Positions 4,326 through 54,498 of a stretch of 64,000 nt of DNA are shown one piece after another. Origin of the DNA: Phycicoccus sp. Soil802 (GTDB lineage: Bacteria; Actinomycetota; Actinomycetes; Actinomycetales; Dermatophilaceae); assembly GCF_001429605.1 (NCBI RefSeq), contig NZ_LMSS01000007.1:124001-188000 (forward strand). Reading direction: 5' to 3'. Under the pieces are notes generated by a model. That model did no database searches. It was given only the letters and a program-made list of their open reading frames with translations, and was not told the DNA's origin. Numbering within the stretch: the stretch's first letter is position 1; every line of letters begins with the position of its first letter. The position numbers and the translations under genes were made by a program.

Positions 4326-5382
4326 CGCCGTCGGACATGACGTAGTCCTTGCCCTCCATGCGGACCTTGCCCGCGGCCTTGGCCGCAGCCATCGAGCCCA
4401 TGGCGTCGAGGTCCTCGTAGGACACGATCTCGGCCTTGATGAACCCACGCTGGAAGTCGGTGTGGATGACCCCGGCGGCCTGCGGCGCGGTCCAGCCCTG
4501 ACCGATGGTCCACGCGCGCGACTCCTTGGGGCCGGCCGTGAGGTAGGTCTGCAGGCCGAGCGTGTGGAACCCGGTGCGGGCGAGCTGGTCGAGCCCGGAC
4601 TCCTCGGCGCCGAACGACTCGAGCAGCTCCATGGCCTCCTCCGGCTCCATCTCCATGAGGTCCATCTCGAGCTTGGCGTTGAGGAACACCGAGTCGGCGG
4701 GCGACACCAGCGCGCGCAGGGAGTCCTGCAGCGCGGCGTCGGACAGCTGGTCCTCGTCGAGGTTGAACACGTAGATGAACGGCTTGGTCGTCAGCAGGCC
4801 CAGGCCCCGCGCCTCGGCGAGGTCGACCCCGGCAGCCGCGCCCGCGGCATACAGGGTGTGGCCCTCCTCGAGCACCTTCTGCGCCGCCACGGCGTTGTCG
4901 AGGATGGCCTTCTTCTCCTTCTGGATCCGCGACTCCTTCTCCAGCCGCGGCACGGCCTTCTCGAGGGTCTGCAGGTCGGCGAGGATCAGCTCGGTGTGGA
5001 TCGTCTCGATGTCCGACTCGGGCGAGACCTTGCCGTCGACGTGGACGACGTCGCCGTCCTCGAACGCGCGCACCACCTGGCAGATCGCGTCGGCCTCACG
5101 GATGTTGGCGAGGAACTTGTTGCCCAGGCCCTCACCCTCCGAGGCCCCGCGGACGATGCCGGCGATGTCGACGAACGACACCGTCGCGGGCAGGATGCGC
5201 TCGGAGCCGAAGATCTCGGCCAGCCGCTTGAGGCGGGCGTCCGGCAGCGGGACCACCCCGACGTTCGGCTCGATCGTCGCGAACGGGTAGTTCGCGGCGA
5301 GCACGTTGTTCTTGGTCAGGGCGTTGAACATCGTGGACTTGCCCACGTTGGGCAGGCCGACGATTCCGATAGTGAGAGCCAC
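4297..5382 (-). CDS. ychF: Redox-regulated ATPase YchF (OBG-family GTPase-like)
   Basis: A 361-residue YchF, the normal family length. The P-loop is GLPNVGKS at residues 9-16, followed by a DIAG G3 motif. A NLDE motif stands where ordinary GTPases have NKxD; this change is the family hallmark and gives preference for ATP. A C-terminal TGS domain ([15 protein letters not shown] onward) ends in VEFRFNV. YchF binds ribosomes and affects translation and oxidative stress responses. The gene is intact although the integrated element abuts its 3' end. It is followed upstream by the thioesterase gene on the same strand. Confidence 0.97.
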
Positions 5383-5394
5383 AAGGCCGAGAGT

Positions 5395-6267
5395 CTACCG
5401 GCGGTCAGCGGCAGGCACGGACGCCCGGGCGAGCTGCCGAGACAGCGCGACGAGCCGTCCCTCGCTGTCCCAGACCTCGGCGTCCTCCTCGAGGAAGCCA
5501 CCGGCCAGCGTGCGGTTCGTGAGGTTCACCCGCAGCCAGCCCGGGGCCGGACGGGCGCGGACGTGCGCCGTGAGCTCGAGGGTGGGCGTCCAGCCGGGCA
5601 GCCCGAGCTCGAACGCGACCGGCGGCAGGGCGTCGACGGCCAGGAGCAGCAGGAGCGGGTCGGGCTCGCGGCCGTCGGCCATCCGCAGCCACCCGCGGAT
5701 GACGCCGTTGCCCGACGGCTTGCCCATCGCCCAGCCGGTGGTCGCCGGGTCGAGGCGCATGTCGAGGCGCTGGAGGAGGGAGGCGTGCTTGAGGAAGTCC
5801 GGCGGCGCCTGGGCCGCCGACACGCAGCGGTCGGGGGGCGGCAGCTCGGGCGGCTGGGCGGACGTCGTGAGGTCGCCGTCGACCGAGGCGAGGTCGCCGT
5901 AGGTCGCGAGGAAACGGACCCGCTCCACCTCGCCGCCCTGCCCGTCGTCCTGCAGCAGCGAGGCCTGTCCGGTCGACACGGCCCGGCCCCGGCGGATCAC
6001 CGAGGTGCGCACGGTCGCGGGTCCGGGGGCACCCGGCGTCAGGTAGTAGGCGCTGATCGCCAACGGGTCCGGGTGGGCCGGACGGTCACCGTCCGCAGTG
6101 CCGAACTCCGCGGCGAGCGCCCGACCGGCGATGGCCAGCAGCACCCCGCCGTTGACTCCGCCGCCGATCCGCCACCCCTCGCCCAGGGCCGCGTCGTAGA
6201 CGCCCCCCTCGCCGTCGCGTGCGGAAACCGCTGAACCCGTGTCGAACTCACTCGCCCCACTGACCAC
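5395..6267 (-). CDS. Acyl-CoA thioesterase family protein (TesB-like double hotdog)
   Basis: About 290 residues with the double-hotdog layout of TesB-like thioesterases. The N-terminal half has the GWRIGGGVNGGVLLA helix entry and an ISAYYLTPG strand. The C-terminal half is a shorter hotdog (LELTAHVRARPAPGWLRVN). The family hydrolyses acyl-CoA thioesters; the substrate cannot be read here. The frame opens at 6312, but that start lies beyond the palindrome at 6292-6329. A GTG at 6267 with GGGAGC seven bases upstream is the better start. The stop is 12 bases from the ychF start, so the two probably share a transcript. Confidence 0.75.
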   Translation of the reverse strand: MVSGASEFDTGSAVSARDGEGGVYDAALGEGWRIGGGVNGGVLLAIAGRALAAEFGTADGDRPAHPDPLAISAYYLTPGAPGPATVRTSVIRRGRAVSTGQASLLQDDGQGGEVERVRFLATYGDLASVDGDLTTSAQPPELPPPDRCVSAAQAPPDFLKHASLLQRLDMRLDPATTGWAMGKPSGNGVIRGWLRMADGREPDPLLLLLAVDALPPVAFELGLPGWTPTLELTAHVRARPAPGWLRVNLTNRTLAGGFLEEDAEVWDSEGRLVALSRQLARASVPAADRR

Positions 6268-6291
6268 TTGGCTGCTCCCATCCTGCGCTGC

Positions 6292-6329
6292 GCGCGGCAT
6301 ACCTGACGTCACTGGAGGGTATGCCGCGC
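6292..6329 (-). terminator. Hairpin of inverted GTATGCCG words downstream of the metalloprotease gene
   Basis: Twelve-base arms GCGCGGCATACC and GGTATGCCGCGC flank a 14-base loop, just after the stop of the leftward metalloprotease gene. There is no T-tract, as is common in actinobacteria. It is one of the paired GTATGCCG sites found across the window. Confidence 0.6.
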
Positions 6330-6338
6330 AACGGCCGG

Positions 6339-9398: not shown

Positions 9399-9591
9399 GG
9401 TGCACTCCGTGTCGACGGTTTCCCCCGGCCCAATGACACGGCGACAGTACCCCTCGCTGCCTCACGATGCACATCGGGGCAAGGCCCTGACCTGCGACGA
9501 TGCCCCTGCGAGCACTCAGCCAGGCGGCTGACCACTGCAACCGGTGTGGGCGACGAACGGCCGCCGCGCGGCATACCTGGTCGACCTCACC

Positions 9592-10509
9592 TCACAGCGC
9601 CGGGAGTCCGTCCTCGAGGTATGCCGTGGGGCCGGCATGGGCGGCGAGGAAGGCGAGCAGGCGCTGGTTGTAGGGCGCCACGCGCTCCTCCCACTCCTCC
9701 TCGGCGGCGAAGTGCAGCGAGCGGATCTCCCTGCGCTCCAAGGTGGTCCGCGCGATGAGCTCCTCGTCGGCGACCCCGAGGTCGAAGACGAAGACCGTGG
9801 CGTCGCTCCACCCTCGCCACGGTGGCAGCCAGTTGACCGCGAGCAGGGCGCGGACCTCGACGTCGATCGCGAGCTCCTCCCTGACCTCGCGAACCACGCA
9901 CTCGGCCGGCGACTCCGAGGGGTCGACCACGCCACCGGGCAGGTCCCACTCGGCCTTGTAGGTGAGCTCGCACAGCAGCACGCGCCCCGCAGGGTCGCGC
10001 AGCACGCCCTGGGCGATGGCGCGCTTGGTGGGCAGTGACGAGTTGAGCAGGGCGATGAAGCCGTCGCGGCTGTCGGGCTCCGCGTCGTCGCGCAGCCGGG
10101 CGAGCACCATCGTGTCGACCCGCTCACCGGGACCCGCGAGCGCCCCGCGGGCGACCCCCTCCTTGCGCATCCCGGCGCGCAGCGCGGCCCGCACCCCCGA
10201 TCGGTCGGCGTCGGGCACCCGGGCCTCGATGCGGTGCACCTCGAGCGCGTCGAAGGTCCAGGCGACGGCCAGTCGCAGGGCGCGCTCGACGATGCCGACC
10301 TCGCGGTACTCGGCGACGACCGCCCAGATCAGGTCGGCGTCACCGGACCCGTCGTCGATCACCTCGACGCGCCCCACCTGTTCGCCCTGCCACTCGACGG
10401 AGAACGCGTGGTCACCCAGCTCACCGGTCGGGTCGGGGTCGCCGCCGTCGCCGTCGACGGCCCGCAGGGTCAGGTCGCCGTCGACCAGCGCCATCCCGGG
10501 TTCAGCCAC
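9592..10509 (-). CDS. GNAT acetyltransferase-Nudix hydrolase fusion protein
   Basis: 305 residues in two domains. Residues 1-140 have the end of a GNAT fold (AEYREVGIVERALRLAVAW, then LEVHRIEARVPDADRSG), the acetyl-CoA binding type. Residues 160-300 form a Nudix domain with the box at 192-214 (GGVVDPSES, then REVREELA). The box has the key Arg and Glu residues but ends EELA where the consensus has EEXG. Nudix enzymes hydrolyse nucleoside diphosphate derivatives; the substrate is not deducible. The fusion suggests coupled modification and clean-up of one small molecule, by inference. The gene stands alone, with no close co-directional neighbour. Confidence 0.8.
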   Translation of the reverse strand: MAEPGMALVDGDLTLRAVDGDGGDPDPTGELGDHAFSVEWQGEQVGRVEVIDDGSGDADLIWAVVAEYREVGIVERALRLAVAWTFDALEVHRIEARVPDADRSGVRAALRAGMRKEGVARGALAGPGERVDTMVLARLRDDAEPDSRDGFIALLNSSLPTKRAIAQGVLRDPAGRVLLCELTYKAEWDLPGGVVDPSESPAECVVREVREELAIDVEVRALLAVNWLPPWRGWSDATVFVFDLGVADEELIARTTLERREIRSLHFAAEEEWEERVAPYNQRLLAFLAAHAGPTAYLEDGLPAL

Positions 10510-12848: not shown

Positions 12849-14045
12849 ATGGAACTCGTGGGCATCCTCATCCTCGGCCTGGTCGTCGGCGCAGCCGCCG
12901 GCTGGTGGAGCGCGCGCGGGTCCGCCTCCGCCGCCCTGGCGTCGGCGCGCACCGAGGCCGACCTCCTGCGTGAGCGCGTGGTCGACCTCGAGGCCGCGGT
13001 CTCCGACGACGCCCAGACCGCAGCGGCCCTCCTGCCCCTCCGCGACGCCCTCGTGCGGGTCGAGCAGCAGGTCGGCACGCTCGAGCGTGACCGCACCAGC
13101 CAGTTCGCGGCGCTCGAGACGACGATGGCGGCGGTGCACGAGTCGACCACCGCCCTGGGTCGCCAGACCCAGTCGCTGGCCGGTTCGCTCAACTCCTCGA
13201 CCGTGCGGGGGGCCTGGGGTGAGGTCCAGCTGCGACGGGTGCTCGAGCACGCCGGCATGCTCGCGCGGTGCGACTTCGACGAGCAGGTATGCCGCGTGAG
13301 CCGGCACCAGCGCCAGGTGCGCCCCGACGTCGTGGTGCGCCTGCCCGGCGACAAGTACCTCGTCATCGACGCCAAGGCCCCGATGGGTGCCTTCCTCGGC
13401 GCCCAGGCCGACGACGTCCCGGCCGGTGAGCGCAAGGAGCTCCTCCGGTCGCACGCCGCGTCGCTCAAGTCGCACGTGACGTCGCTGGCCGCCAAGGACT
13501 ACTGGGCTGCCTTCGACAACTCTCCCGAGATGGTGGTCTGTTTCGTCCCCAGCGATGCCATGCTCGCTGCGGCCCTGTCGGCCGACCCGGCCCTGCACGA
13601 GGACGCCATGTCCCGCCGCGTGGTGCTCGTCGGTCCGGGCTCGCTGCTCGCGCTGCTGCGGACCGTGGCGTTCACGTGGCAGCAGGACGCCCTGACGGCG
13701 CACGCCCGCGAGGTGATGACCCTCGGGCGCGACCTCTACGACCGGCTGGGCACGCTGGGCAGCCACACGATGCGGATGGGCACCGCCCTGCAGCGCTCGG
13801 TGGAGGCCTACAACCAGATGGTCGGGGCCCTCGAGTCGCGGGTGCTGGTGTCAGCGCGGCGGATGCACGAGGCGGGGATCGTCGAGCGGCCGCTGCCCAC
13901 CCCGCTGCCGCTCGAGACCGGCCCCCGGGTGCTGACGGCGATGGAGCTGATCGAGGCCGCCACGGCCGACGCCGAGCGACCTCAGCTGGACTTCGACGAC
14001 GTCGAGATCCCGCCGAGGTGGACCGGCAGGGAGTCGACCGCATAG
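12849..14045 (+). CDS. rmuC: DNA recombination protein RmuC
   Basis: About 398 residues. A single N-terminal membrane helix (MELVGILILGLVVGAAAGWW) is followed by a coiled-coil segment to about residue 140. The conserved RmuC nuclease-like domain starts at STVRGAWGEVQLRRVLEHAG and includes VIDAKAPMGAF. RmuC limits inversions and affects recombination at short inverted repeats. The start could also be 12837 or 12804; 12849 gives the cleanest membrane anchor. Its last 64 bases overlap the end of the convergent P450 gene on the other strand, which is unusual for two conserved genes. Confidence 0.9.
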   Translation: MELVGILILGLVVGAAAGWWSARGSASAALASARTEADLLRERVVDLEAAVSDDAQTAAALLPLRDALVRVEQQVGTLERDRTSQFAALETTMAAVHESTTALGRQTQSLAGSLNSSTVRGAWGEVQLRRVLEHAGMLARCDFDEQVCRVSRHQRQVRPDVVVRLPGDKYLVIDAKAPMGAFLGAQADDVPAGERKELLRSHAASLKSHVTSLAAKDYWAAFDNSPEMVVCFVPSDAMLAAALSADPALHEDAMSRRVVLVGPGSLLALLRTVAFTWQQDALTAHAREVMTLGRDLYDRLGTLGSHTMRMGTALQRSVEAYNQMVGALESRVLVSARRMHEAGIVERPLPTPLPLETGPRVLTAMELIEAATADAERPQLDFDDVEIPPRWTGRESTA

Positions 14046-16531: not shown

Positions 16532-16570
16532 GCGGGGTGTGCCGCGTGGTCACCACGCGGCATACCCCGC
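16532..16570 (-). terminator. Terminator-like palindrome with GTATGCCG arms after the DoxX gene
   Basis: Nineteen-base arms (16532-16550 and 16552-16570) pair fully except one G-T wobble: GCGGGGTGTGCCGCGTGGT and ACCACGCGGCATACCCCGC. One arm carries the GTATGCCG word, the other a one-base variant. It follows the stop of the leftward DoxX gene and precedes ispH. Confidence 0.65.
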
Positions 16571-17795: not shown

Positions 17796-19058
17796 GTGAG
17801 CGGCCCAGACCAGCGCCCGGCGCTGCCCGAGAAGGCCGCCGACACCTCGGCGGAGTCGCCGTGGCCGGTGCGGCTGCTGAGCATGCGCATCGCCGAGTAC
17901 GTCGAGAAGATGTCGGTGCTCTGGGTCGAGGGGCAGGTCGTCCAGCTCACCCGCCGCCCCGGCCAGCGCACCGCCTACCTCACCCTGCGCGACCCCGATG
18001 TCGACATGTCCCTCTCGGTCGCGATCCAGGTCAACGCCCTCGACGCGATGGCGACGCCCCTGGCCCAGGGAGCGCGGGTCGTCCTCCAGGCCAAGCCGGT
18101 CTTCTGGACCCAGCGTGGCTCGTTGATGCTCGACGCCCGCCAGATCCGGCCCGTGGGCGTGGGCGAGCTCCTCGCGCGGGTCGAGCACCTCAAGCGGACC
18201 CTTGCCGCAGAGGGCCTGTTCGACCCCGAGCGCAAGAAGCCGTTGCCGTTCCTGCCCCGCACCGTCGGGCTGGTCTGTGGGCGGGCGGGGGCCGCGGAGA
18301 AGGACGTCGTCGAGAACGCCCGTCGCCGCTGGCCCACGGTCCGCTTCGAGATCCGTGAGGTCGCCGTGCAGGGCGGCAACGCGGTGCAGGAGGTGATGGC
18401 CGCGCTCCAGGAGCTCGACGGGCGGCCCGACGTCGACGTCATCGTGATCGCCCGTGGGGGCGGCTCGGTCGAGGACCTCCTGCCGTTCAGCAACGAGGCA
18501 CTGGTGCGCGCGGTCGCCGCCACCCGCACCCCCGTCGTCTCGGCGATCGGCCACGACGTCGACACTCCCCTCCTCGACCACGTGGCTGACTGGCGGGCCT
18601 CCACGCCCACCGACGCAGGCAAGCGGGTGGTGCCCGACGCGCAGGCCGAGCGGCACGGCATACGCCACTCGCGCGACCGAGGGCGGCGCGCGCTGCACGC
18701 GCGGATCGCCAGCGAGCGCCGGCACCTCATCGCCCTGCGCTCGCGCCCGGTGATGGCCCGCCCGGCGGCGATGATCGAGGCCCGTCGCCAGGAGCTCGAC
18801 GCCCTGACCGACCGGGCCCACCGCCGCGTCCTCGCCTCGGTCCACCGGGCGGCCGACCAGGTCGCCCACCTGCGTGCGCAGGTCAGCACCCTCTCGCCGT
18901 TGTCCACCCTCGAGCGTGGGTATGCCGTCGTGCAGCACCGCGACGGGCGGGTCGTCATGGACCGGGCCGACGTGACGGTCGACGAGGTGCTCCGCGTGCG
19001 CGTGGCGCGTGGCGACTTCGCCGCGAGCGTCGTCGGCCTGCCCGGCAGCTCCGGTTAG
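17796..19058 (+). CDS. xseA: Exodeoxyribonuclease VII large subunit
   Basis: 420 residues. An N-terminal OB-fold (VLWVEGQVVQLTRRPGQRTAYLTL) is followed by the XseA nuclease domain with PRTVGLVCGRAGAAEKDV, VIARGGGSVEDLLPFSNE and SAIGHDVDTPLLD. The C-terminal coiled region binds multiple small subunits. The OB-fold binds single-stranded DNA and the enzyme degrades it to oligonucleotides. It starts with GTG at 17796 and is followed by xseB 11 bases later. Confidence 0.97.
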   Translation: MSGPDQRPALPEKAADTSAESPWPVRLLSMRIAEYVEKMSVLWVEGQVVQLTRRPGQRTAYLTLRDPDVDMSLSVAIQVNALDAMATPLAQGARVVLQAKPVFWTQRGSLMLDARQIRPVGVGELLARVEHLKRTLAAEGLFDPERKKPLPFLPRTVGLVCGRAGAAEKDVVENARRRWPTVRFEIREVAVQGGNAVQEVMAALQELDGRPDVDVIVIARGGGSVEDLLPFSNEALVRAVAATRTPVVSAIGHDVDTPLLDHVADWRASTPTDAGKRVVPDAQAERHGIRHSRDRGRRALHARIASERRHLIALRSRPVMARPAAMIEARRQELDALTDRAHRRVLASVHRAADQVAHLRAQVSTLSPLSTLERGYAVVQHRDGRVVMDRADVTVDEVLRVRVARGDFAASVVGLPGSSG

Positions 19059-24273: not shown

Positions 24274-24316
24274 ACGCGGGGTATGCCGGGTGGTGACCAC
24301 CCGGCATACCCCGCGT
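24274..24316. terminator. Perfect 21-bp-arm palindromic terminator between carbonic anhydrase and ohr
   Basis: Arms of 21 bases pair perfectly around a single central G (24295). Each arm contains GTATGCCG (24281 on plus, 24302 on minus). It lies between two convergent genes, so it can stop transcription from both sides. Confidence 0.85.
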
Positions 24317-24347: not shown

Positions 24348-24770
24348 TCAGGCGAGGGCGACGGTGACGTCGATGTTGCCGCGGGTCGCCTTGGAGTAGG
24401 GGCACCGCTCGTGCGCCGCGTCGACCAGCTGCTGGGCGGTGCCGCGGTCGAGGCCGGGCACCTCCGCGACCAGCGCGACCGCGAGACCGACACCCGTGTC
24501 GGTCTTCCCGAGGGTCACCGTGGCGGTGACGGTGGAGTCGGAGGTGTCCAGCCCCATCGCCGTGGCCACCGAGTTGAGGGCGTTGCCGAAGCAGGCGGCA
24601 TACCCGGCCGCGAAGAGGGTCTCGGGGTTGGCCTTGGGGTTGGCCTTGCTGCCGGGCTTGCCGAGCTTGAGGTGGACGACGCCGTCCGCGCTCGTGACGT
24701 GCCCGGCCCGGCCACCCTGGGCGGTGGCGGCGATCGAGTAGAGCGGTTCGGTCAGGGACTCGTGGGGCAT
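24348..24770 (-). CDS. ohr: Organic hydroperoxide resistance protein (Ohr/OsmC family)
   Basis: 140 residues. The redox cysteines are C60 (AACFGNAL) and C123 (ERCPYSKATRG), the Ohr arrangement. The N-terminal strand LYSIAATAQGGRAG is typical. It reduces organic and fatty acid hydroperoxides, using a lipoyl or other dithiol reductant. ATG at 24770 is chosen; 24785 adds five residues. No OhrR-type regulator is beside it. Confidence 0.93.
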   Translation of the reverse strand: MPHESLTEPLYSIAATAQGGRAGHVTSADGVVHLKLGKPGSKANPKANPETLFAAGYAACFGNALNSVATAMGLDTSDSTVTATVTLGKTDTGVGLAVALVAEVPGLDRGTAQQLVDAAHERCPYSKATRGNIDVTVALA

Positions 24771-26256: not shown

Positions 26257-26287
26257 GGTATGCCGGGTGGTGACCACGCGGCATACC
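26257..26287. terminator. GTATGCCG palindromic hairpin between lhgO and glmM
   Basis: GGTATGCCGGGTGGT (26257-26271) pairs with ACCACGCGGCATACC (26273-26287), with one mismatch. It lies at the 3' ends of two convergent genes. Confidence 0.7.
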
Positions 26288-28823: not shown

Positions 28824-28866
28824 GTATGCCGCGTGCGCCCGAGGCGCACGATCCGCCGGGCGGATC
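28824..28866 (-). promoter_or_regulatory. Tandem hairpins and a GTATGCCG word upstream of rplM
   Basis: GTATGCCG at 28824 is followed by GTGCGCC-CGA-GGCGCAC (28833-28849) and directly by GATCCGCCGGGCGGATC (28850-28866). These two abutting hairpins sit 60-90 bases before the rplM start on its leader side, in a 270-base gap with no gene. They could be a leader structure for autoregulation or a boundary element; the sequence does not decide. Confidence 0.4.
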
Positions 28867-38691: not shown

Positions 38692-40416
38692 TCAGCGGGC
38701 GCGGGCCACCCGGCCCTCGTCCCAGACCGGCTCGTCCGACTCGTAGACCCGGCCGTCCGACCCGAACACCAGGAACCGGTCGAAGCCCCGCGCGAACCAC
38801 CGGTCGTGGGTCACTGCGATGACGGTGCCCTCGAACGCCTCGAGGCCCTCCTCGAGCGCCTCGGCCGAGTGCAGGTCGAGGTTGTCGGTGGGTTCGTCGA
38901 GCAGCAGGCAGGTCGCACCCGACAGCTCGAGCAGCAGGATCTGGAACCGCGCCTGCTGGCCACCGGAGAGCGAGTCGAAGGTCTGCTCGCTGGCTCGCGC
39001 CAGGCCGTAGCGGTCCAAGACCCGGGCGGCCTCCTCGCGGGGCCGTCCGGCGCGGTGCTCGTCGCCCCGGTGCAGGATCTCGAGGAGCGTGCGGTCGACG
39101 AGGGCGGGCTGCTCGTGCGTCTGGGCGAACCAGCCCGGCCGCACCCTCGACCCCAGGCGCAGCCGACCGGTGTGGGTCACCGAGACCGGCTGGAGGTCGC
39201 CGACCGGGCGGTGCTCGGCGTCGGGGTCGCTCCCACCGGCCGCCACGAGGCGCAGGAAGTGCGACTTGCCCGAGCCGTTGCTGCCGAGGACCGCGACTCG
39301 CTCCCCGAACCAGATCTCGAGGTCGAACGGCTTCATCAGTCCCCCCATGGCGGGAGAAAGCGTGCCATCGGGAGGTGACCCCGCCTTCAGCTCAAGCCGC
39401 TCGGCGATGACGGCGCGCTTGGCGGTGCGACCACCCTTGAGCCGCATGTTCACGTTCTGCCGCAACGGCGTCTCCTGCGGTGGGCCGGCCTCCTCGAACT
39501 TGCGCAGGCGGGTCTGGGCGGCGTGGTAGCGGGGCGCCATGCCGTCGTTGTACTTGGCCTTGACCTTGAGCATCTGTACCAGGTCCTTGATCTTCTGGTG
39601 CTCCTCGTCCCAGCGCCGGCGCAGCTCCTCGAGGCGGGAGTTCCGGTCCTCCCGGGCCTGGTGGTAGGTCACGAACCGCCCCGGGTGGACCCACAGGGTC
39701 GAGCCGGCACCCCCGGGTTCGAGGGTGGCGACCCGCGTCGCGACCCGGTTGAGCAGCTCCCGGTCGTGGCTGACGAACAGCACCGTCTTCGGCGAGGCGA
39801 TGAGCTGCTCCTCGAGCCACCGCTTGGCCGGCACGTCGAGGTAGTTGTCCGGCTCGTCGAGCAGCAGCACCTCCTCGGGCCCGCGCAGCAACGCCTCGAG
39901 GACGACCCGCTTCTGCTCCCCGCCCGACAGGGTGGTGACCTTGCGCCACTGGGCCTTGTCGAACGGCATACCGAGGGCTGCCACGGTGCAGACGTCCCAC
40001 AGGGTCTCGTAGTCGTAGCCACCCACGTCGCCCCACGCGACGAGGGCGTGCGCGTAGGCCATCTGGTCGGCCTCGCTGTCGCGCTCCATCATCAGCATCT
40101 CGGTGCGGTCGATCTCGGCGGCGGCCTCGCGCACCGGCTCCGGCGCGACCGACAGCAGCAGGTCGCGCACGGTCGAGTCGTCGCGCACCGAGCCCACGAA
40201 CTGCCGCATCACCCCGAGGCCGCCCGAGCGCGTCACCGCGCCCTCGTGGGCCACGAGGTCACCGGCGATGATCCGGCCCAGCGTCGTCTTACCCGTGCCG
40301 TTGGGACCGATGAGGGCCACCTTGGCGCCCTCACCCACGCGGAGGGAGACCTCGCTCAGCAGGGGCCGGCCGTCCGGCAGCACGAAGCTCACGGTGTTGA
40401 TGTCGAGGTGTCCCAC
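38692..40416 (-). CDS. ABC-F family ATP-binding protein
   Basis: 574 residues with two ABC ATPase domains and no membrane region. The first has GPNGTGKTT, LSGGEQKRV and VLLLDEPDNYLD. The second has GSNGSGKSH, LSGGQQARF and LLLDEPTDNLDL. A charged linker joins them (DRNSRLEELRRRWDEEHQKI). ABC-F proteins act on the ribosome, as translation factors or in antibiotic resistance. DEPDNYLD replaces the usual DEPTNHLD in the first half. GTG start at 40416. The 48-base gap to the pullulanase gene holds no clear signal. Confidence 0.93.
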   Translation of the reverse strand: MGHLDINTVSFVLPDGRPLLSEVSLRVGEGAKVALIGPNGTGKTTLGRIIAGDLVAHEGAVTRSGGLGVMRQFVGSVRDDSTVRDLLLSVAPEPVREAAAEIDRTEMLMMERDSEADQMAYAHALVAWGDVGGYDYETLWDVCTVAALGMPFDKAQWRKVTTLSGGEQKRVVLEALLRGPEEVLLLDEPDNYLDVPAKRWLEEQLIASPKTVLFVSHDRELLNRVATRVATLEPGGAGSTLWVHPGRFVTYHQAREDRNSRLEELRRRWDEEHQKIKDLVQMLKVKAKYNDGMAPRYHAAQTRLRKFEEAGPPQETPLRQNVNMRLKGGRTAKRAVIAERLELKAGSPPDGTLSPAMGGLMKPFDLEIWFGERVAVLGSNGSGKSHFLRLVAAGGSDPDAEHRPVGDLQPVSVTHTGRLRLGSRVRPGWFAQTHEQPALVDRTLLEILHRGDEHRAGRPREEAARVLDRYGLARASEQTFDSLSGGQQARFQILLLELSGATCLLLDEPTDNLDLHSAEALEEGLEAFEGTVIAVTHDRWFARGFDRFLVFGSDGRVYESDEPVWDEGRVARAR

Positions 40417-40576: not shown

Positions 40577-41473
40577 GTGCCCCGCTCTGCCTCCCCCCTG
40601 CGCCTCATGGCTATGGTCGCCCTCGTGGCGATCGTCGGTGCCGTCGGCGTGACGGTGGCAGGCCAGGCGATGGCTGCCCCGGAGGTGGACCGCACCGGTC
40701 GGCCGGCCGCTGCGCGAGCCATGTGGGTCTGGGACACGTCCGACCCGCAGGCGGTCGTCAGCCTCGCCACGGCTCGGGGCATCGGTCAGCTGTATGCCGC
40801 CGTCCCCCCGCACGTGGACGGCTCACCGAAGCTCGCCGAGCTCCAGCAGCTCGTCGCCCTGGCCGACGCCGCGGGGCTGCGGGTCGACGCGCTCGGCGGC
40901 GACCCGGGCTGGGTCGACAACCCCACGTGGGTGGTCACCAACTGGCTCCAGCCGGCGCTCGCCACCGGGCTGTTCACCGGGGTCCACGTCGACATCGAGC
41001 CCTACACGACCCCCGCGTGGACGAAGAACCGCAAGGCCGTCATCAAGAAGTACCTCACGACCCTCGACACGCTCGGCGCCGCCGCCGCAGCAACCCCGAT
41101 CGAGGCGGACATCCCGTTCTGGTTCGACGAGATCGCCGCGAACGGCTCCACGCTGGACCGCGAGATCATGCGTCGCACCGACGCGGTCACCGTGATGGCC
41201 TACCGCAACACCGCCGACGGGACCGACGGCACGATCGCCCTCGCCTCGGCCGAGCTGGCCGCGGGCGCACTGCTCGGCCGCCCGGTGCGGGTCGGTCAGG
41301 AGACGAACTTCCTCGGCGCCGACCCGACGGAGGTCAAGCAGACCTTCCACGGCATGACGCTGGCGCAGATGGACGCCCAGCTCGCGCTCGTGCGGGACGC
41401 GTTCTCGGGCTCCCCCGCGTTCGCGGGGCTGGCGATCCACGACTCGGTCGGCTACGCGGCCGTCACCGGCTGA
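40577..41473 (+). CDS. Secreted TIM-barrel-like protein of unknown function
   Basis: 298 residues. A signal peptide (MAMVALVAIVGAVGVTVAG, cleavage near AMA-APE) is followed by a domain with repeated beta-alpha units (ARAMWVWDTS, IGQLYAAVPPHV, LRVDALGGDPGWV, GVHVDIEPYTTPAW, DAVTVMAYRNTADG). VDIEP resembles the catalytic strand of GH18-like barrels, and the fold is probably a glycosidase-type TIM barrel. The activity is not established. GTG start at 40577 with AAAGGA upstream. It lies alone between ABC-F and TetR genes. Confidence 0.75.
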   Translation: MPRSASPLRLMAMVALVAIVGAVGVTVAGQAMAAPEVDRTGRPAAARAMWVWDTSDPQAVVSLATARGIGQLYAAVPPHVDGSPKLAELQQLVALADAAGLRVDALGGDPGWVDNPTWVVTNWLQPALATGLFTGVHVDIEPYTTPAWTKNRKAVIKKYLTTLDTLGAAAAATPIEADIPFWFDEIAANGSTLDREIMRRTDAVTVMAYRNTADGTDGTIALASAELAAGALLGRPVRVGQETNFLGADPTEVKQTFHGMTLAQMDAQLALVRDAFSGSPAFAGLAIHDSVGYAAVTG

Positions 41474-41503: not shown

Positions 41504-42157
41504 TCAGGGCCTCTCGGGCTCCAGGAGCAGGCGGCACCACAGGTCCTCGAGCAGGTCGGCGTAGCGCTGGGCCGACCAGCCGCGCGAGCGGAGCAGCAGC
41601 CAGTAGTCGGGTGAGTTGGTCGACCAGATCAGGTCGGCCACCTCGTGGTCGGTGAGGTCTGCCCGCAGGTCGCCCGTCGCGCGCAGGTCGGCGGCCAGCA
41701 GCAGCATGTTGGCGGCCCGGCGGTCCATCACCATCGCCCAGGCCGAGGCCGAGGCGGGGTCGGACTCCCCCGCCCTGCGCAGAGCCTCGAGCAGCGGGGC
41801 GGTGCGCGGCACGAGCGTCCGCAACGCCGCGGCATACACCGCGAGCTTGTCCCGGCCGGTGCGGGCGGCCTGCACGGCCCGCACGTAGTCGCGCTCCTGG
41901 GCGGGCACCGGCTCGTCGCTGGAACCCAGCACCATGTCGACCACGGCGACCGCCAGCTCGGGCTTGCGCCCCACGCTGGTGTAGACGGTGTCGACCGAGA
42001 CGCCGGCCGCAGCCGCGACCATCGCCACGGTCGTCGCCTCGTAGCCGTGCTCGGTCAACAGGTCCTTGGCTGCGCGCAGGACGGCGAGCCGGGTGCGCTG
42101 TGCCTGCTCGGCGCGCAGCGTCGACCGGTAGGTGCGGGTCTTGACGGGCTTGGTCAT
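41504..42157 (-). CDS. TetR-family transcriptional regulator
   Basis: 217 residues. The N-terminal helix-turn-helix includes RLAVLRAAKDLLTEHGYEA and MVAAAAGVSVDTVYTSVGRK. The C-terminal helices form the ligand domain (LLEALRRAGESDPASASAW). It is divergent from a cupin gene 104 bases away, with an inverted repeat at 42176-42203 next to its start. This suggests autoregulation and control of the cupin gene. Confidence 0.92.
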   Translation of the reverse strand: MTKPVKTRTYRSTLRAEQAQRTRLAVLRAAKDLLTEHGYEATTVAMVAAAAGVSVDTVYTSVGRKPELAVAVVDMVLGSSDEPVPAQERDYVRAVQAARTGRDKLAVYAAALRTLVPRTAPLLEALRRAGESDPASASAWAMVMDRRAANMLLLAADLRATGDLRADLTDHEVADLIWSTNSPDYWLLLRSRGWSAQRYADLLEDLWCRLLLEPERP

Positions 42158-42801: not shown

Positions 42802-43679
42802 CCCCTCCGCTCGCCCAGGGTGCGCACGGCCCGCGCCTCGTCCGCACGGGAGGCCAGCCCGGTGTCGTCGGGGTAGGTGACCTCCTCCAGCGACAGGCCG
42901 TGGGGTGGCATGACGGTGACGCCGGTGTCTCTGACGGCGGCGCGCATCACCTCGGCGGGCCACTCGACCGAATGGCGCCCCTCGCCGACCGGCAGCACCG
43001 CCCCGACCAGCGACCGCACCATCGAGTGGCAGAACGCGTCGGCCACGACGGTCGCCTCGAGGGTGCCGTCCGCGGCCCTGCGCCACGAGTAGTCGAGCAG
43101 CGTGCGCACCGTGGTGGCGCCGTCCCGCTTCTTGCAGAACGCGCCGAAGTCGTTCAGCCCCAACAGTTTCTGCGCCGCGGAGTGCATGGCCTCGACGTCC
43201 AGCTCACGCTTGGTGAGGACCGTGTCACGTCGCCGGAGCGGGTCGGCCGTCGCGGGTCGGTCGCACAGTCGGTAGAGGTAGCGGCGCTGCAGCGCCGAGA
43301 ACCGCGCGTCGAAGCCCGCGGGGGCGACGCCCACCGCCCGCACGCCGATGTCTGCGGGGAGTATGCCGCGCAGTCGCGACAGCGCCGCTGCCTCGGCGGA
43401 GCGCTCCGACCGACCGCGCAGGGCCGCCCAGGCCGACGGGTCTGCGTCGAGGTGAGCCACCTGTCCGCGGGCGTGCACGCCGGCGTCGGTGCGCCCCGCC
43501 ACGGTGAGGCGCACCGGTTCGCTGGAGCGCAGCAGGGTGGTCAGGGCGGCCGAGAGCTCCCCCTCGACGGTGCGCAGACCCGGTTGGGCCGCCCAGCCGG
43601 AGAAGTCGGTGCCGTCGTAGCCGAGGTCGAGGCGGATCCGCAGGGGCGCGGTCGGCTCCACGCCCTGCTCGTCGTCCAT
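42798..43679 (-). CDS. truA: tRNA pseudouridine(38-40) synthase TruA
   Basis: 293 residues. The catalytic Asp lies in AGRTDAGVHARGQ. Other family motifs are LGYDGTDFSGWAAQPG, FDARFSALQRRYLYRL and FCHSMVRSLVGAVL. It isomerises uridines 38-40 in the anticodon stem of tRNAs. In many actinobacteria truA follows rplQ directly; here two unrelated genes lie between them. Confidence 0.97.
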   Translation of the reverse strand: MDDEQGVEPTAPLRIRLDLGYDGTDFSGWAAQPGLRTVEGELSAALTTLLRSSEPVRLTVAGRTDAGVHARGQVAHLDADPSAWAALRGRSERSAEAAALSRLRGILPADIGVRAVGVAPAGFDARFSALQRRYLYRLCDRPATADPLRRRDTVLTKRELDVEAMHSAAQKLLGLNDFGAFCKKRDGATTVRTLLDYSWRRAADGTLEATVVADAFCHSMVRSLVGAVLPVGEGRHSVEWPAEVMRAAVRDTGVTVMPPHGLSLEEVTYPDDTGLASRADEARAVRTLGERRG

Positions 43680-45071: not shown

Positions 45072-47138
45072 TCAGCCCGGCCACCCTCCAGACGCGCGCA
45101 ACCGGGCGGCGAGCACTGGAGCCAGCGTCGCGGCATACGTCTTCGTGAGGTGGTTGTCGTCGAGGTAGACCCAGACGTTCCCCACCGAGGGTGGGCACTG
45201 CTCGTCAGGGCAGATGTGGTCGGTCAGGTCGACGATGGTGAGCCCTCGGACCCCCGCCAGTGCGGCCGCAGGGTCGACGGGAGCGAGCTTGGCGGCGACC
45301 GGCGCGCCACAACCGGCCTCGTCCCCCTCGCGGAGCGCGCAGTTCACCACTCCCCCGTGCCAGCGCGGGTTGTCGCGCAGCCCGACGACGGAGATCCCCC
45401 GGGTCGTGAGCTCGAGGACGGCTGCCTGGTAGCCGGTCACCAGCCGTTCCGCGGCGGTGGTGGGGTGCGCCGCGGTCGCCACCGTCACCACGCTGTCAGG
45501 ACGGTGGTCGGTGAGGTATTCCATCGCCTCGCGGTTGAAGGCCGCGCACGCACCCGAGCGGGTCTGGGCGTCGCCGAAGCTGCAGGCGCCCTTGAGCAGC
45601 GAGACCAGGCGCCAGTGGTTGCTCCTGGCCAACGGCAGCAGCGTCGCCAACCACTGCTCGGCATGGGAGTCACCGACGACCACGATCGTGCGCCGGGCCG
45701 GGCCACTGGGCTCGAACACCCGACAGCTCAGCCCACCGTCGGGCGCCCAGGCACCCCCGCAGGGATCGGGCAGCGACGCGAACTCGCCACGCAGCGCCGT
45801 GGACGCCGGCAGTCGGTCCCGCTGCGGGAGCGGGATGACCGCGGCGGCCGCCCCCACAGCCCGGGCACCCGGGTGGCGGGGGTCGAACGCGCCGCTGGCC
45901 ACCGCATCCGCGCGGGCGGCCTCACCGTGCAGCTGCAGCAGGCCGACCCCGCAGAAGGTCAGAGCCGTGCCGACGATGCAACCCAGCAGCACGGCTGAGC
46001 GCCACGGTGCGGTGTCCGGCCAGGACCGCCCGCGCAACGGTCGCTCGACCCCGCGACCGAGCCCGACCGCCAACACGCCGGAGACCATCACCACGCCGAG
46101 GCCGTCCACCACGCCCGCCCCGGGCCGACCCGACCACGCGAGCCACAGCACGAGGACCGGCCAGTGCACGAGGTAGAGCGCATAGGCGTAGCCGCCGACC
46201 CCCACGAGTGGTCGGCTCGACAGCAGCCGGTCGACACCGAGCGGGTGCCCGGTGCGTCCCGCCGCGATGATGGCGGCTGCGGAGAGCAGCGGCCACAGCG
46301 CGAGGTAGCCGGGGAACGCGTGGGTCACCTGCAGCACCAGCCCGCAGCTGACCATGCCCGCCAGCCCGACCCAGCCCAGCGGCACACCCAGCGACCCCGG
46401 CACCCGCAGCCGCGCCAGCCCGAGCGCCAGCAGCGTCCCGAAGGCGAACTCCCACAGCCGCGCCCCGCCGTCGAAGTAGGCGAAGGCCTGCCGCTGCGAC
46501 GTCGTGTGCACCGAGTAGGCCAGCGACAGGACGAAGACCACCCCGAAAAGTGCCGCCACGAGCGGCCGCAGGGCCACGCCGGTGCGACGGGCCACGACCC
46601 CCGCACCCACGAACAGCAGCGGCCACAGCACGAAGATCTGACCCTGCAACGACAGCGACCAGAAGTGCTGGAGCGGGCTCGCCACGCCCTGGTCGGCCGC
46701 GTAGTAGTCGACGGCCCGATGGGCGAGCAACCAGTTCTGGACGTAGCCGAGCGTGGCCAGGCCCTCCTGCAGGAGGTCGCCCCACCGGGTCGGGGGGAGC
46801 ACCACGAAGGAGACGGCCAGGGTCGCGACCAGCACCACCACCGCAGCCGGGACCAGGCGTTGGAAGACGTGCAACCAGTGTCGTCCGAGCGAGATCCGCT
46901 GCCCGGCCTCGAGCCGGCGCACGAAGCTGCCCGACATGAGGAAGGCCGAGATCAGCAGGAAGATGTCGATCCCGCCGGAGACCCGGCCGAGCCACACGTG
47001 GTAGCCGACCACCATGAGGACGGCCAGGGCGCGGAGCCCCTGCACCTCGGGGCGGTAGGGCGAGCCGGTTGACCGGACGGCCGGGGCCTCGACGTCAGGG
47101 GCCCGGACGGTGTCCGGGCGTGGTGGGGCAAGGGTCAC
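45072..47138 (-). CDS. Membrane acyltransferase with SGNH domain (OafA-like)
   Basis: 688 residues. Residues 28-400 form an acyltransferase-3 membrane domain of about ten helices. It starts with PYRPEVQGLRALAVLMVVGY and H48 in YHVWLGRVSGGIDIF. The C-terminal 240 residues are an extracytoplasmic SGNH hydrolase-like domain with the Ser block VVGDSHAEQW and the Asp-x-x-His block DDNHLT near the end. Such fusions O-acetylate cell-surface glycans or peptidoglycan; the acceptor is unknown. GTG start at 47138. It sits between rplQ and truA, a place normally without a gene. Confidence 0.93.
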   Translation of the reverse strand: MTLAPPRPDTVRAPDVEAPAVRSTGSPYRPEVQGLRALAVLMVVGYHVWLGRVSGGIDIFLLISAFLMSGSFVRRLEAGQRISLGRHWLHVFQRLVPAAVVVLVATLAVSFVVLPPTRWGDLLQEGLATLGYVQNWLLAHRAVDYYAADQGVASPLQHFWSLSLQGQIFVLWPLLFVGAGVVARRTGVALRPLVAALFGVVFVLSLAYSVHTTSQRQAFAYFDGGARLWEFAFGTLLALGLARLRVPGSLGVPLGWVGLAGMVSCGLVLQVTHAFPGYLALWPLLSAAAIIAAGRTGHPLGVDRLLSSRPLVGVGGYAYALYLVHWPVLVLWLAWSGRPGAGVVDGLGVVMVSGVLAVGLGRGVERPLRGRSWPDTAPWRSAVLLGCIVGTALTFCGVGLLQLHGEAARADAVASGAFDPRHPGARAVGAAAAVIPLPQRDRLPASTALRGEFASLPDPCGGAWAPDGGLSCRVFEPSGPARRTIVVVGDSHAEQWLATLLPLARSNHWRLVSLLKGACSFGDAQTRSGACAAFNREAMEYLTDHRPDSVVTVATAAHPTTAAERLVTGYQAAVLELTTRGISVVGLRDNPRWHGGVVNCALREGDEAGCGAPVAAKLAPVDPAAALAGVRGLTIVDLTDHICPDEQCPPSVGNVWVYLDDNHLTKTYAATLAPVLAARLRASGGWPG

Positions 47139-49264: not shown

Positions 49265-49308
49265 CTTCGGTATGCCGCGCGCACGAGCGCGCCCGCGGCA
49301 TACCGAAG
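49265..49308 (-). terminator. GTATGCCG hairpin between rpsD and rpoA
   Basis: CTTCGGTATGCCGCG (49265-49279) pairs perfectly with CGCGGCATACCGAAG (49294-49308), and the inner GCGC/GCGC can extend the stem. It follows the rpsD stop inside the alpha operon, so it may attenuate or process the transcript rather than end it. Confidence 0.6.
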
Positions 49309-51091: not shown

Positions 51092-51167
51092 AGCCTCTGC
51101 TTCAGTCGATCTGGCACTGTCGCTCCGGGCGGACCGACAGGTCTAACGGGTGGTGCTGGTCGTGCGT

Positions 51168-51389
51168 CTAGCGGTAGCGGAAGACGATCCGGCCACGGGT
51201 CAGGTCGTACGGGCTGAGCTCCACCACCACGCGGTCCTCGGGGAGGATCCGGATGTAGTGCTGACGCATCTTGCCCGAGATGTGAGCGAGAACCTTGTGA
51301 CCGTTCGTGAGCTCGACCCGGAACATTGCGTTCGGGAGAGCCTCGACGATCGTGCCCTCGATCTCGATGACACCGTCCTTCTTGGCCAT
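51168..51389 (-). CDS. infA: Translation initiation factor IF-1
   Basis: 73 residues forming one OB-fold ([40 protein letters not shown]). The start at 51389 is the family start; the longer frame to 51521 is not real. It binds the 30S A site during initiation. Confidence 0.98.
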
Positions 51390-51526
51390 ATCCTCCACAA
51401 TCTGTCGTCGTGGCGCCCCCGGCTGGGGCGCACACACGAATACGGCACGCGAGGTCGCGCACCGACAGATCAGTCTACGCCAGGACTGCCTGAGCACGAA
51501 ATCGCGCTCCAGGACCCCCAATCACG

Positions 51527-51598
51527 CGACTTCTGGCCACCCATGGCGCACCAGGACGCCGAATGCGGCGTCAGGTGCTGCACCAGTGGCCAGAAGTG
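51527..51598. repeat. Large palindrome, copy 3 of the ACTTCTGGCCAC family
   Basis: ACTTCTGGCCAC (51529-51540) pairs perfectly with GTGGCCAGAAGT (51586-51597). An inner arm GCACCAGGACGCCG (51548-51561) pairs with CGGCGTCAGGTGC (51566-51578) apart from one bulge, closing on an AATG loop. It lies in the gap between the infA start and the map stop. It is the most regular of the three copies. Confidence 0.7.
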
Positions 51599-51624
51599 CG
51601 GGGAAGGAGCGTGCGGAAGGGGGG

Positions 51625-52467
51625 TCAGGCCAAGGGGGCGTATGCCGCGCCGGCGGCTTCCAGCCGCTCCTTGCCGCCGTCGAGGGCGGTCAGCACCCAC
51701 AGCCCGGCGTCGGTGACGGCCACGGTGTTCTCCCAGTGGGCCGCCCTGGACTTGTCGTTGGTCACGACGGTCCAGTCGTCCTCGAGCACGGTGGTCTCGG
51801 CGCTGCCGAGGGTCACCATCGGCTCGATCGCCACGGTCACCCCGGAACGCACCGTGGGACCGCGGTCTCGGACGCGGTAGTTCGGCACCTGGGGGTCCAT
51901 GTGCATCTCGGTGCCGATGCCGTGGCCGACGTAGTCCTCGATGATCCCGTAGTCGTGCCCGTCGCGCTCGCCAGAGGCGACGATGCTGTCCTCGACCCCG
52001 GCGCCCACGGCATACAGCGACTCCCCCACGGTGAGCGCGGCGATGCCGGCCCACATGGAGTCCTCGGTCGCGTCGATCAGGGCGAGGTCCTCGGGGCGCC
52101 CGGCGTCGCGGCCGCCCACGATGACGGAGATCGCGGCGTCGCCGTGCCAGCCGTCCACGATGGCCCCGCAGTCGATCGAGATGAGGTCACCTTCGGCCAG
52201 CACCCGCGAGCCGGGGATGCCGTGCACGACCTCGTCGTTGACCGACGTGCACAGCGAGCCGGTGAACCCGTGGTAGCCGAGGAACGACGGTGTCGCCCCA
52301 CACCCACGGATGTGCTCCTCGGCCAGCTCGTCGAGCTGCTTGGTGGTCATCCCCGGACGGACCGTCTGGGCCATCAGCTGGAGGGTCTGACCGACCACCA
52401 GACCAGCCTTGCGCATGCGCAGGATCTGGTCGGGGGTCTTGGTCTCGATGCGGGACCTGCCGAACAT
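51625..52467 (-). CDS. map: Type I methionine aminopeptidase
   Basis: 280 residues. Expected metal ligands lie in SIDCGAIVDGWHGDAAIS (two Asp), VGHGIGTEMH (His), VAIEPM (Glu) and HWENTVAVTDAG (Glu). It removes N-terminal Met from new proteins. The sequence lacks the N-terminal SH3-binding zinc region seen in some actinobacterial paralogues. Its start codon touches the adk stop. Confidence 0.97.
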   Translation of the reverse strand: MFGRSRIETKTPDQILRMRKAGLVVGQTLQLMAQTVRPGMTTKQLDELAEEHIRGCGATPSFLGYHGFTGSLCTSVNDEVVHGIPGSRVLAEGDLISIDCGAIVDGWHGDAAISVIVGGRDAGRPEDLALIDATEDSMWAGIAALTVGESLYAVGAGVEDSIVASGERDGHDYGIIEDYVGHGIGTEMHMDPQVPNYRVRDRGPTVRSGVTVAIEPMVTLGSAETTVLEDDWTVVTNDKSRAAHWENTVAVTDAGLWVLTALDGGKERLEAAGAAYAPLA

Positions 52468-53042
52468 CAGGATCGAGCAACCCCTTCGAGGGCTTCGGAG
52501 ATGCGGGTGAAGACGTCGTCGACCGACCCCATGCCGTCGACCTGCACGAGCAGGCCGCGGGCGGAGTAGACCTCGGTCAGCGGGGCGGTCTCGCGACGGT
52601 AGATCGCCTGGCGCTCGCGGATGACCTCTTCGGTGTCGTCCTCGCGTCCCTCGATCTCGGCCCGCTTGAGCAGCCGCTGGACCACGGCCTCTTCGTCCAC
52701 GGTCAGCTCCAGGACGGCACCGAGCGCGTGGCCGTGCTCGGCCAGGATCGCGTCGAGCGTCTCGACCTGGGCGGCCGTGCGCGGGTAGCCGTCGAGCAGG
52801 AAGCCCTGCTCGGCGTCGTCCTCGAACAGCCGGTCGCGCACGATCGCGTTGGTGATCTCGTCGGTGACGTAGCCACCGGACGCGAGCACCTCCTTGACCT
52901 GCAGACCGAGGGGGGTCTCGTTCTTGATGTTGGCGCGGAAGATGTCGCCGGTCGAGATCGCCGGGATGCCGAACGTGTCGGCGATCTTGGCCGCCTGCGT
53001 GCCCTTACCGGCACCGGGCGGACCCAGGATGATCAGACGCAT
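52467..53042 (-). CDS. adk: Adenylate kinase
   Basis: 191 residues. The P-loop is [10 protein letters not shown] (residues 7-16), followed by [10 protein letters not shown] and [16 protein letters not shown]. The LID region is short, as in the actinobacterial type. It balances AMP, ADP and ATP. It overlaps map and secY by single bases, so the three are tightly coupled. Confidence 0.97.
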
Positions 53043-54355
53043 TACCGAAGGAACCCTTCGTAGTGCCGCTGCTGCAGCTGCGACTCGATCTGCTTCACCG
53101 TCTCGAGGCCGACGCCGACGATGATCAGGATGGAGGTGCCACCGAACGGGAAGTTCTGGTTGGCGCCGACGAGCTTCAGTGCGATGAGCGGGATCAGCGA
53201 GACGAGGCCGAGGTAGATGGCCCCTGGAACGGTGATGCGGGTGAGCACGTAGTCGAGGTACTCGGCCGTGGGTCGCCCGGCGCGGATACCTGGGATGAAG
53301 CCTCCGTAGCGCTTCATGTTGTCGGCCACTTCCACCGGGTTGAACGTGATCGACACGTAGAAGAACGTGAAGAACAGGATCAGCGCGATGTAGGTCGCCA
53401 TGTAGATCGGGTGGTCGCCGCGCACCAGGTGCGCGTCGATCCAGGTCACCCAGCCGGGCTGGTCGCCGGTGGTGGACCTGTTGAACTGTGACAGCAAAGA
53501 GGGCAGCGCGAGCAGCGACGAGGCGAAGATCACGGGGATGACGCCGGCCATGTTGACCTTGAGCGGGATGTAGGTCGAGGTCCCGCCGTACATCTGGCGG
53601 CCGACCTGGCGCTTGGCGTACTGCACCGGGATGCGGCGCTGGCTCTGCTCGACGAACACGACCAGGGCGATGATGAGGAAGCCGAGCAGGATGACGCCGA
53701 TGAAGACGTCCCAGCGGCCGTCCTGCTGCTGGATCGCCCAGAGCGAGCTGGGGAACGAGCTGGCGATCGAGGTGAAGATCAGCAGCGACATGCCGTTGCC
53801 GATGCCCTTGTCGGTGACCAGCTCACCGAGCCACATGACGACGCCGGTGCCGGCGGTCATCGTGAGCACCATGATGACCAGGGTCGGGATCGACTCGTCG
53901 GGCAGGATGCTCGTGCAGTTCGGGCCGAACAGCGCGGACGGGTTCTGGGCGAACGTGATGAGGGTGGAGGACTGCAGGACCGCCAGGCCGATGGTCAGGT
54001 AGCGGGTGTACTGCGTCATCTTCGTCTGGCCCTGCTGGCCCTCCTTCTTGAGGGCCTCGAACCGCGGGATGACCACGGTGAGGAGCTGCACGATGATGCT
54101 CGCCGTGATGTACGGCATGATCCCGAGCGCGAAGATCGACAGCTGCAGGAGGGCGCCACCACTGAAGAGGTTGGCCAGGCCCAGCACGCCGGTGGTCGCG
54201 TCAGCACCCTTGATGCAGGCCTGCACGGCGGTGTAGCTCACGCCGGGGACGGGCACGTGCGAGCCGAGCCGGAAGACGACGACGATCGCGAGGGTGAACA
54301 GCAGCTTCCTGCGCAGGTCCGGCGTCTTGAACGCACGGGTGAAGGCGGTGAGCAC
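53042..54355 (-). CDS. secY: Protein translocase subunit SecY
   Basis: 437 residues with ten membrane helices. Markers are [20 protein letters not shown] at the start, [19 protein letters not shown] in helix 2, and the cytoplasmic loop [20 protein letters not shown]. It is the channel of the Sec translocon. It ends overlapping the adk start. A GTATGCCG hairpin precedes it. Confidence 0.98.
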
Positions 54356-54453
54356 AGGTCCTCCTGGTGACGCGGGCCCGTGGGGCCACGCGATGATGAT
54401 GGTCAGGCAATCCTACGAAGGCTACCCCGGGTGACGGCTGGGGACAGCAAACG

Positions 54454-54498
54454 GGGTATGCCGCGCGCTCACCTCAGCGGTGAGCCCGCGGCATACCC
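54454..54498 (-). terminator. Two-tier GTATGCCG hairpin between rplO and secY
   Basis: GGGTATGCCGCG (54454-54465) pairs with CGCGGCATACCC (54487-54498), and an inner CTCACC (54468-54473) pairs with GGTGAG (54479-54484). It follows the rplO stop within the spc operon, before secY. Confidence 0.6.

Follow-up and report, generated by a model that had tools for sequence, protein, structure and literature searches.

The octamer GTATGCCG is scattered over both strands of a 64,000-nt stretch of Phycicoccus sp. Soil802 (contig NZ_LMSS01000007.1, positions 124,001 to 188,000; hereafter the window), and we consider it likely, at a probability of roughly 0.78, that this word works as a DNA uptake sequence (DUS) in a family of actinobacteria capable of natural transformation. 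The estimate applies to the uptake-sequence function, not to a receptor or to the step of strand entry. To our knowledge, DNA uptake sequences are known only from the Neisseriaceae and Pasteurellaceae, both Gram-negative families with type IV pili. On our best reading, GTATGCCG would be a third, independent system and the first known in Gram-positive bacteria. An initial annotation of the window had proposed a DUS-like word from its density of about one per kb, its presence on both strands, its inverted pairs and its absence from foreign DNA. These traits hold in the samples tested, and dialects, a patchy distribution and a strand-specific exclusion have been added to them; together they support that proposal and do not prove it. 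The full set of traits is as expected of a DUS, and no single rival accounts for it.

The window contained 34 copies of GTATGCCG, and a recount bore out every position and strand previously listed for them (Table 1). The expectation from 100 dinucleotide shuffles was 0.92, and the largest shuffle gave 3. When observed counts were divided by trinucleotide-based expectations, GTATGCCG had the highest enrichment among the 8-mers of the window. The whole 4.29-Mb genome carried 2,241 copies (1143 forward and 1098 reverse) and 51 copies of the reversed word (25 and 26), which served as the control. A 504-kb sample of this genome, composed of the window, two 20-kb loci and twenty 20-kb stretches, held 267 copies compared to 6.3 expected from trinucleotides, and 400 kb of a word-rich relative (G077) held 305 compared to 8.5. 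The word was absent from 1-4.3 kb and past 54.5 kb of the window, as had been noted before. The earlier figure of about 13 intergenic copies was lowered to 11 of 34 outside called genes (by a rough gene caller), and eight of these 11 form four inverted pairs. A sequencing adaptor contains CGGCATAC, and an adaptor artefact was ruled out by the varied contexts of GTATGCCG.

The excess within genes is at the level of DNA, not of protein. Called genes of the Soil802 sample held 194 copies, compared to a mean of 15.7 and a maximum of 22 in 20 synonymous-codon shuffles, a 12-fold excess; called genes of G077 held 205 compared to 20.0. Genic copies occurred in all six frames, most commonly as TAT-GCC (89) and GCA-TAC (49), and the flanks in Soil802 preferred G at -1, C at +1, G at +2 and G at +5. 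Neither of the outcomes named in the initial annotation as refuting it was seen: the count was not close to the codon-shuffled expectation, and the copies did not come from a single hairpin family. Given the genic excess, a mobile repeat, in the form of a hairpin resembling repetitive extragenic palindromes or miniature inverted-repeat transposable elements plus its decayed copies, can hardly be the sole explanation, and we regard any such origin as highly improbable. The hairpins at 24281, 26258 and L158:9334 do have a common inner stem, but the other pairs shown have different inner stems, 200 of 276 words in the Soil802 sample were unpaired and lay within called genes, in all six frames, and relatives differed chiefly by in-place substitutions and, at some sites, by gaps.

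Inverted pairs stood at gene ends, as do those of the DUS and of the Pasteurellaceae uptake signal sequence (USS), and are putative terminators. Among classifiable pairs, 15 of 19 were nearer to a stop than to a start codon (8/10 in Soil802 and 7/9 in G077), and the median distance from pair to stop codon was 23 nt and 11 nt, respectively. Five of 24 pairs lay inside called genes (1/11 and 4/13). The word was also scarce in foreign-like DNA, another trait of DUS and USS, as judged from low-GC segments and from the word-free first 4.3 kb of the window. With the ribosomal-protein end of the window excluded from the count, ten 2-kb segments of Soil802 below 66% GC held 2 words (0.10 per kb), and the density was 0.55-0.60 per kb above 68% GC; in G077, 28 segments below 66% GC held 22 words, or 0.39 per kb versus 0.72-0.93. 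Two regions may be mentioned separately. Window positions 1-4300 end in an integrase-like open reading frame (ORF; 3101-4276, judged by eye) and were read as an integrated element, and a 17-kb region of 65% GC elsewhere in the genome (L149:1629-18765), which has one word, is perhaps an acquired island.

Copies of GTATGCCG on the same strand repel each other within about 1-1.5 kb and copies on opposite strands do not, a strand-specific exclusion that is a new rule. Of the isolated adjacent words, 149 of 208 in Soil802 had opposite orientations (p = 4e-10), as did those in 164 of 257 in G077 (p = 1e-5) and in 310 of 498 in 32 further word-rich genomes or loci, a few of which overlap slightly (p = 5e-8). 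Five of the six control 8-mers that yielded counts were close to 50:50 and one tilted toward the same strand (142:112), and a seventh yielded no counts. Same-strand pairs of GTATGCCG closer than 1.5 kb numbered 28 compared to 106.7 expected. In the Soil802 genome, same-strand pairs up to 1.5 kb reached 0.20, 0.36, 0.14 and 0.34 of expectation and were normal beyond. The exclusion zone measured about 1 kb in G077 and in other genera, and up to 2 kb elsewhere in the genus. Opposite-strand pairs stood at 0.75-1.5 of expectation. Genomes that use the variant GGATGCCG gave 16 same-strand and 28 opposite-strand neighbors, which was not significant (p = 0.10; 7:22 in G036 and 9:6 in the other two). 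Each chromosome strand seems to have its own array of words, indifferent to the other, and one copy per strand per 1-1.5 kb or so seems to suffice.

Chi, the highly iterated palindrome HIP1, and the FtsK-orienting polar sequences and SpoIIIE recognition sequences (KOPS/SRS) are abundant short words read at the DNA level, and they differ from GTATGCCG in strand bias, palindromy or clustering. A Chi-like recombination signal would be an octamer that an end-processing helicase-nuclease recognizes on one strand, guarding the cell's own ends and promoting repair. GTATGCCG resembles such a signal in being an octamer, in its genome-wide occurrence, in apparently being read by strand and in being richer in own than in foreign-like DNA. 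Chi of Escherichia coli, however, is strand-biased (71:41) and clusters on the same strand (41 same-strand pairs below 1.5 kb in 400 kb of strain K-12, compared to 24.5 expected), whereas GTATGCCG is balanced and its same-strand copies repel. Terminator pairs and close dialects are likewise unexpected of Chi, and we consider this explanation unlikely. The even spacing on each strand could also suit a chromosome-organising word, such as KOPS/SRS, matS or a nucleoid-protein site, an alternative raised in the initial annotation. It was weakened by the absence of replication-strand polarity: GTATGCCG showed no bias with respect to local GC skew (129:138 in Soil802 and 146:159 in G077, the skew being weak here and the assignment of leading strands correspondingly noisy), and strand counts per stretch were homogeneous (p = 0.999 and 0.98), more even than chance, with no polarity toward the terminus. 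Given also the background level in 31 of 80 family genomes and the low density in foreign-like DNA, a role of this kind is very unlikely.

Among 147 genomes, those rich in GTATGCCG were found only in the Dermatophilaceae/Intrasporangiaceae, a group which we take to be the Dermatophilaceae of GTDB and which was sampled across 53 genera. The highest count among 58 genomes from other families of the order was 167. In a class-wide sample of 296 genomes, six of them family members, the maximum outside the family was 386, in a 7.5-Mb genome with 176 copies of the reversed control; the taxonomic claim covers sampled members of this one class. Within the family, 43 of 80 genomes were rich in GTATGCCG, 3 were rich only in GGATGCCG, 3 were weak and 31 were without the word. 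Nine more family genomes outside this table, some of low completeness, all exceeded 1,000 copies. Several copies lay near comEC in Terrabacter, Terracoccus, Humibacillus, Intrasporangium oryzae, a Nostocoides metagenome-assembled genome, Phycicoccus elongatus, Ornithinimicrobium (7 and 3) and Arsenicicoccus (6), and none in two Janibacter, Phycicoccus jejuensis, another Phycicoccus, Intrasporangium flavum and Dermacoccus. Of 44 loci placed on a tree, 43 were scored, 23 with the word (one of them on the strength of a dialect word) and 20 without it. The word label required at least 9 changes on this tree, 8 of them forced by well-supported branches. The deep branch L068 carries the word. Presence of the word is thus scattered over the family tree, and the changes may be losses or gains.

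Dialects differed from GTATGCCG at positions 2 and 6. GGATGCCG reached 3949 copies in G036 and 3816 and 3838 in G026 and G073, 2195 in G053 alongside 1217 of GTATGCCG, and 1336 in G011; the remaining 75 of the 80 rows had 241-1,038. Two of the 80 rows match two further rows exactly in their counts and probably represent duplicate genomes. GTATGACG reached 1954 and 1966 copies in G037 and G079, 1557 in G013 and 319-834 in nine more, and every genome listed as carrying it was also rich in GTATGCCG. Among 61 genomes, GAATGCCG numbered 3135 in G022 (control 27) and 730, 388 and 352 in G060, G052 and G028. A word bound to one family and having dialects is also what a methylation- or restriction-linked word could produce, kept through a family methyltransferase or restriction enzyme in the manner of HIP1, which is strongly enriched in genes. 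GTATGCCG, however, is non-palindromic, and such a link would explain neither the strand-specific exclusion nor the pairs behind stop codons; we judge it quite unlikely. GTACGCCG was rejected as a further dialect. It exceeded synonymous shuffles in G033 (25 compared to 6.0) and G049 (14 compared to 3.1), was also frequent in loci outside the family, and was provisionally taken as a codon-context effect. A 22-kb locus of Nocardioides pocheonensis (L099) held 12 copies of CTCAACCA (0.4 expected) and 10 of GTGGTTGA (0.5 expected), which reads as another abundant word or repeat family.

Conservation was assessed in aligned orthologous DNA, with 8-mers of the same genes and the same phase as the control. 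Genic copies in the window were unchanged at 11 of 15 sites in G004 (control 33%), 15 of 21 in G006 (30%) and 10 of 17 in G002 (24%), and the excess was weaker in G001 (7/20, control 24%) and G061 (4/14, control 18%), all of which are word-rich. No excess was seen in the word-poor G010 and G007, in which 4 of 18 and 5 of 20 were unchanged compared to 24 and 23%. Changes in G010 concentrated on position 4 of the word (14/29), where single changes were T to C three times and T to G twice. The comparison of orthologues called for at the outset separated five word-rich relatives, with conservation above same-gene controls, from two word-poor ones with none, and showed that some species maintain GTATGCCG whereas in others it drifts.

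A competence machine in the host, as DUS and USS systems have, is predicted from gene sequence only. The initial annotation had pointed to com genes as a check, and comEA, which adjoins comEC, is present together with a tad-1-like cluster. This cluster (tadA-tadB-tadC-flp-tadE-tadF-tadG) adjoins a gene with an FtsK/SpoIIIE domain and has the layout of Micrococcus luteus tad-1. Orthology was judged on layout and on the look of the pilins; of the pilin-like genes, TadE alone was above its Pfam cut-off, and the others were named from position and look. According to excerpts of two studies, transformation of M. luteus requires comEC and genes of tad-1 and tad-2, and mutation of the FtsK/SpoIIIE neighbor cuts it at least 1000-fold; these excerpts differ from the present case in mentioning no uptake word (PMC4322843, PMC8467076).

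Several candidates for a gene that accompanies the word were rejected. comEC was missed in only three of the 80 family genomes, all of them drafts of word-rich members, and with a match in the other 77 it did not discriminate word-rich genomes. The TadA of the heli/sec type (TIGR03819) matched in 80 of 80 and was above cut-off in 73. A type IVa pilus was rejected as the uptake machine, as PilM occurred in 4 of 80 genomes, three of the matches partial. The FtsK/SpoIIIE-domain neighbor was rejected as a reader of the word: it had no match in 20 kb of the word-rich G021 and G035, and the match in G076 was partial and off the usual place, so that the gene is not required there. Among the ORFs displayed for some of the com, heli/sec tad and tad-1 loci (by a crude gene caller), none was confined to word-rich genomes.

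The tad-1 cluster itself varied. Of 80 genomes, 11 lacked any TadF match, a twelfth had only a 29-bit one and 2 more had an internal stop in the gene, and tadA was absent, split or partial in other genomes. Both tadA and tadF were missing in 8 of 31 word-negative genomes (5 genera) and in none of the 46 word-rich ones (p = 4e-4). The two genes were present and uninterrupted in 39 of 46 word-rich genomes (in two on different contigs) compared to 16 of 31 word-negative genomes (p = 0.002), and TadF alone in 44 of 46 compared to 19 of 31. These p values are uncorrected for kinship, and the scoring was partly by eye. Wholesale loss of tad-1 goes loosely with absence of the word, and many word-free species retain the cluster.

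Mobile elements seem to enter tadA of tad-1, the competence-pilus ATPase, repeatedly. The gene was split near residue 237 in G004 and G009, its halves lying about 71 and 79 kb apart (L216, G004:C1:2414000-2433999; L214, G009:C11:664500-684499), and near residues 205-214, in the Walker A region, in G017:C43 and G038:C23, with about 11 and 35 kb. Next to the junction in G004, L216:8611-10146 resembles a large serine recombinase by eye. About 40 and 13 kb separate tadA from tadF in G078 and G057 (L225 and L228), compared to the usual 3 kb or so, and reflect insertions. G036, which still has its 3949 copies of GGATGCCG, had no flp, tadE or tadF match within 20 kb (L145, G036:C1:2422000-2441999); low-GC-type ORFs follow tadC there, and a remnant of the TadG C-terminus lies at 1600-1767.

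A number of these observations weigh against an uptake function. comEC is also present in word-negative genomes, 16 of 31 of which keep whole tadA and tadF, and 7 of 46 word-rich genomes do not have both of these genes whole, so that the word goes with the machinery only loosely. The split tadA of the word-rich G004, G009 and G017 should block uptake now. No receptor that tracks the word turned up at the com and tad loci. Among the 32 further genomes or loci, 20 favored the opposite strand, 6 the same strand and 6 were tied, all on small numbers. Decaying copies should leave some single-base neighbors of GTATGCCG, and most of these were near expectation. The commonest exceptions were GGATGCCG (67 compared to 46 expected in Soil802, 101 compared to 46 in G077) and GTAGGCCG (47 compared to 28, and 26 compared to 17).

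If GTATGCCG is an uptake sequence, a pilus or a partner of it would bind DNA at the word, the word would set the orientation in which one strand enters via ComEC, and recombination would swap the resident copy, so that word-bearing alleles would be taken up and copied preferentially, by drive or by selection for kin DNA. Words on one strand that lie within a recombination tract of each other would add nothing, from which the strand-specific exclusion would follow. The fuller proposal, that the direction in which GTATGCCG points selects the strand or side that enters through the Tad-pilus machine, that the array on each strand is spaced by the import tract and that dialects are mating groups, is tentative, and we put its chances somewhat below even.

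Among known systems, the Neisseriaceae DUS, read by the ComP receptor, is similar in being a short exact word of both genic and intergenic DNA, with inverted terminator pairs, and in having dialects in sister taxa, some one base apart, and two dialects within the S. muelleri genome (excerpts of PMC3630211). Its spacing of 1.1-1.5 kb matches neisserial conversion tracts, and the exclusion zone of GTATGCCG is similar in scale to these tracts and to a DUS spacing of 1.1-1.7 kb (excerpts of PMC2397512). It differs in its unrelated sequence and in host, GTATGCCG belonging to high-GC Gram-positive bacteria with a Tad pilus and PilM in 4 of 80, and strand-specific exclusion is absent from the passages on DUS consulted. 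Available portions of the Pasteurellaceae literature describe a USS over-represented in genes and terminators, without general orientation bias (PMC2346458), and with a receptor, ComN, that is only predicted (PMC12616744); sequence, host and pilus type differ. The matches listed from the open-access literature included no actinobacterial uptake sequence and, judged by titles and the first lines of abstracts, no paper on a word of this kind. A third independent origin, if true, would mean that bacteria have come to label their own DNA more than once, and by means of different machines. The dialects, absences and decays of a 53-genus family would offer natural replicates for distinguishing drive from selection, the strand-wise exclusion would provide a sharp, countable prediction on uptake orientation, and DNA that bears the word may offer a practical route to transforming actinobacteria in which this is difficult at present.

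Table 1. Positions of GTATGCCG in the window. MFE, minimum free energy.
Feature	Position	Strand or component words	Remarks
Inverted pair, 29-nt hairpin	24281..24309	24281-24288 (+) / 24302-24309 (-)	RNA MFE -24.6
Inverted pair	26258..26286	26258(+)/26279(-)	Called 3' gene end 23 nt away; RNA MFE -20.2
Inverted pair	49270..49303	49270(+)/49296(-)	Called 3' gene end 12 nt away; RNA MFE -21.7
Inverted pair	54456..54496	54456(+)/54489(-)	Called 3' gene end 18 nt away; RNA MFE -32.3
Two words pointing apart	6295..6326	6295(-), 6319(+)	
Two words pointing apart	9569..9626	9569(-), 9619(+)	
Single, genic	4845..4852	-	Unchanged in 6/7 aligned relatives
Single, genic	13287..13294	+	
Single	16558..16565	-	
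Single, genic	18656..18663	-	
Single, genic	18920..18927	+	Unchanged in 6/7 aligned relatives
Single	24596..24603	-	
Single, outside called genes	28824..28831	+	
Single	29605..29612	-	
Single, genic	31375..31382	-	
Single, genic	31516..31523	+	
Single, genic	34741..34748	+	
Single, genic	35085..35092	-	
Single, genic	37626..37633	-	
Single, genic	38148..38155	-	Opens the last 13 words of the window; all 13 alternate in strand
Single, genic	38377..38384	+	
Single, genic	39964..39971	-	
Single, genic	40792..40799	+	
Single, genic	41830..41837	-	
Single, genic	43361..43368	+	
Single, genic	45131..45138	-	
Single, genic	51640..51647	+	
Single, genic	52008..52015	-

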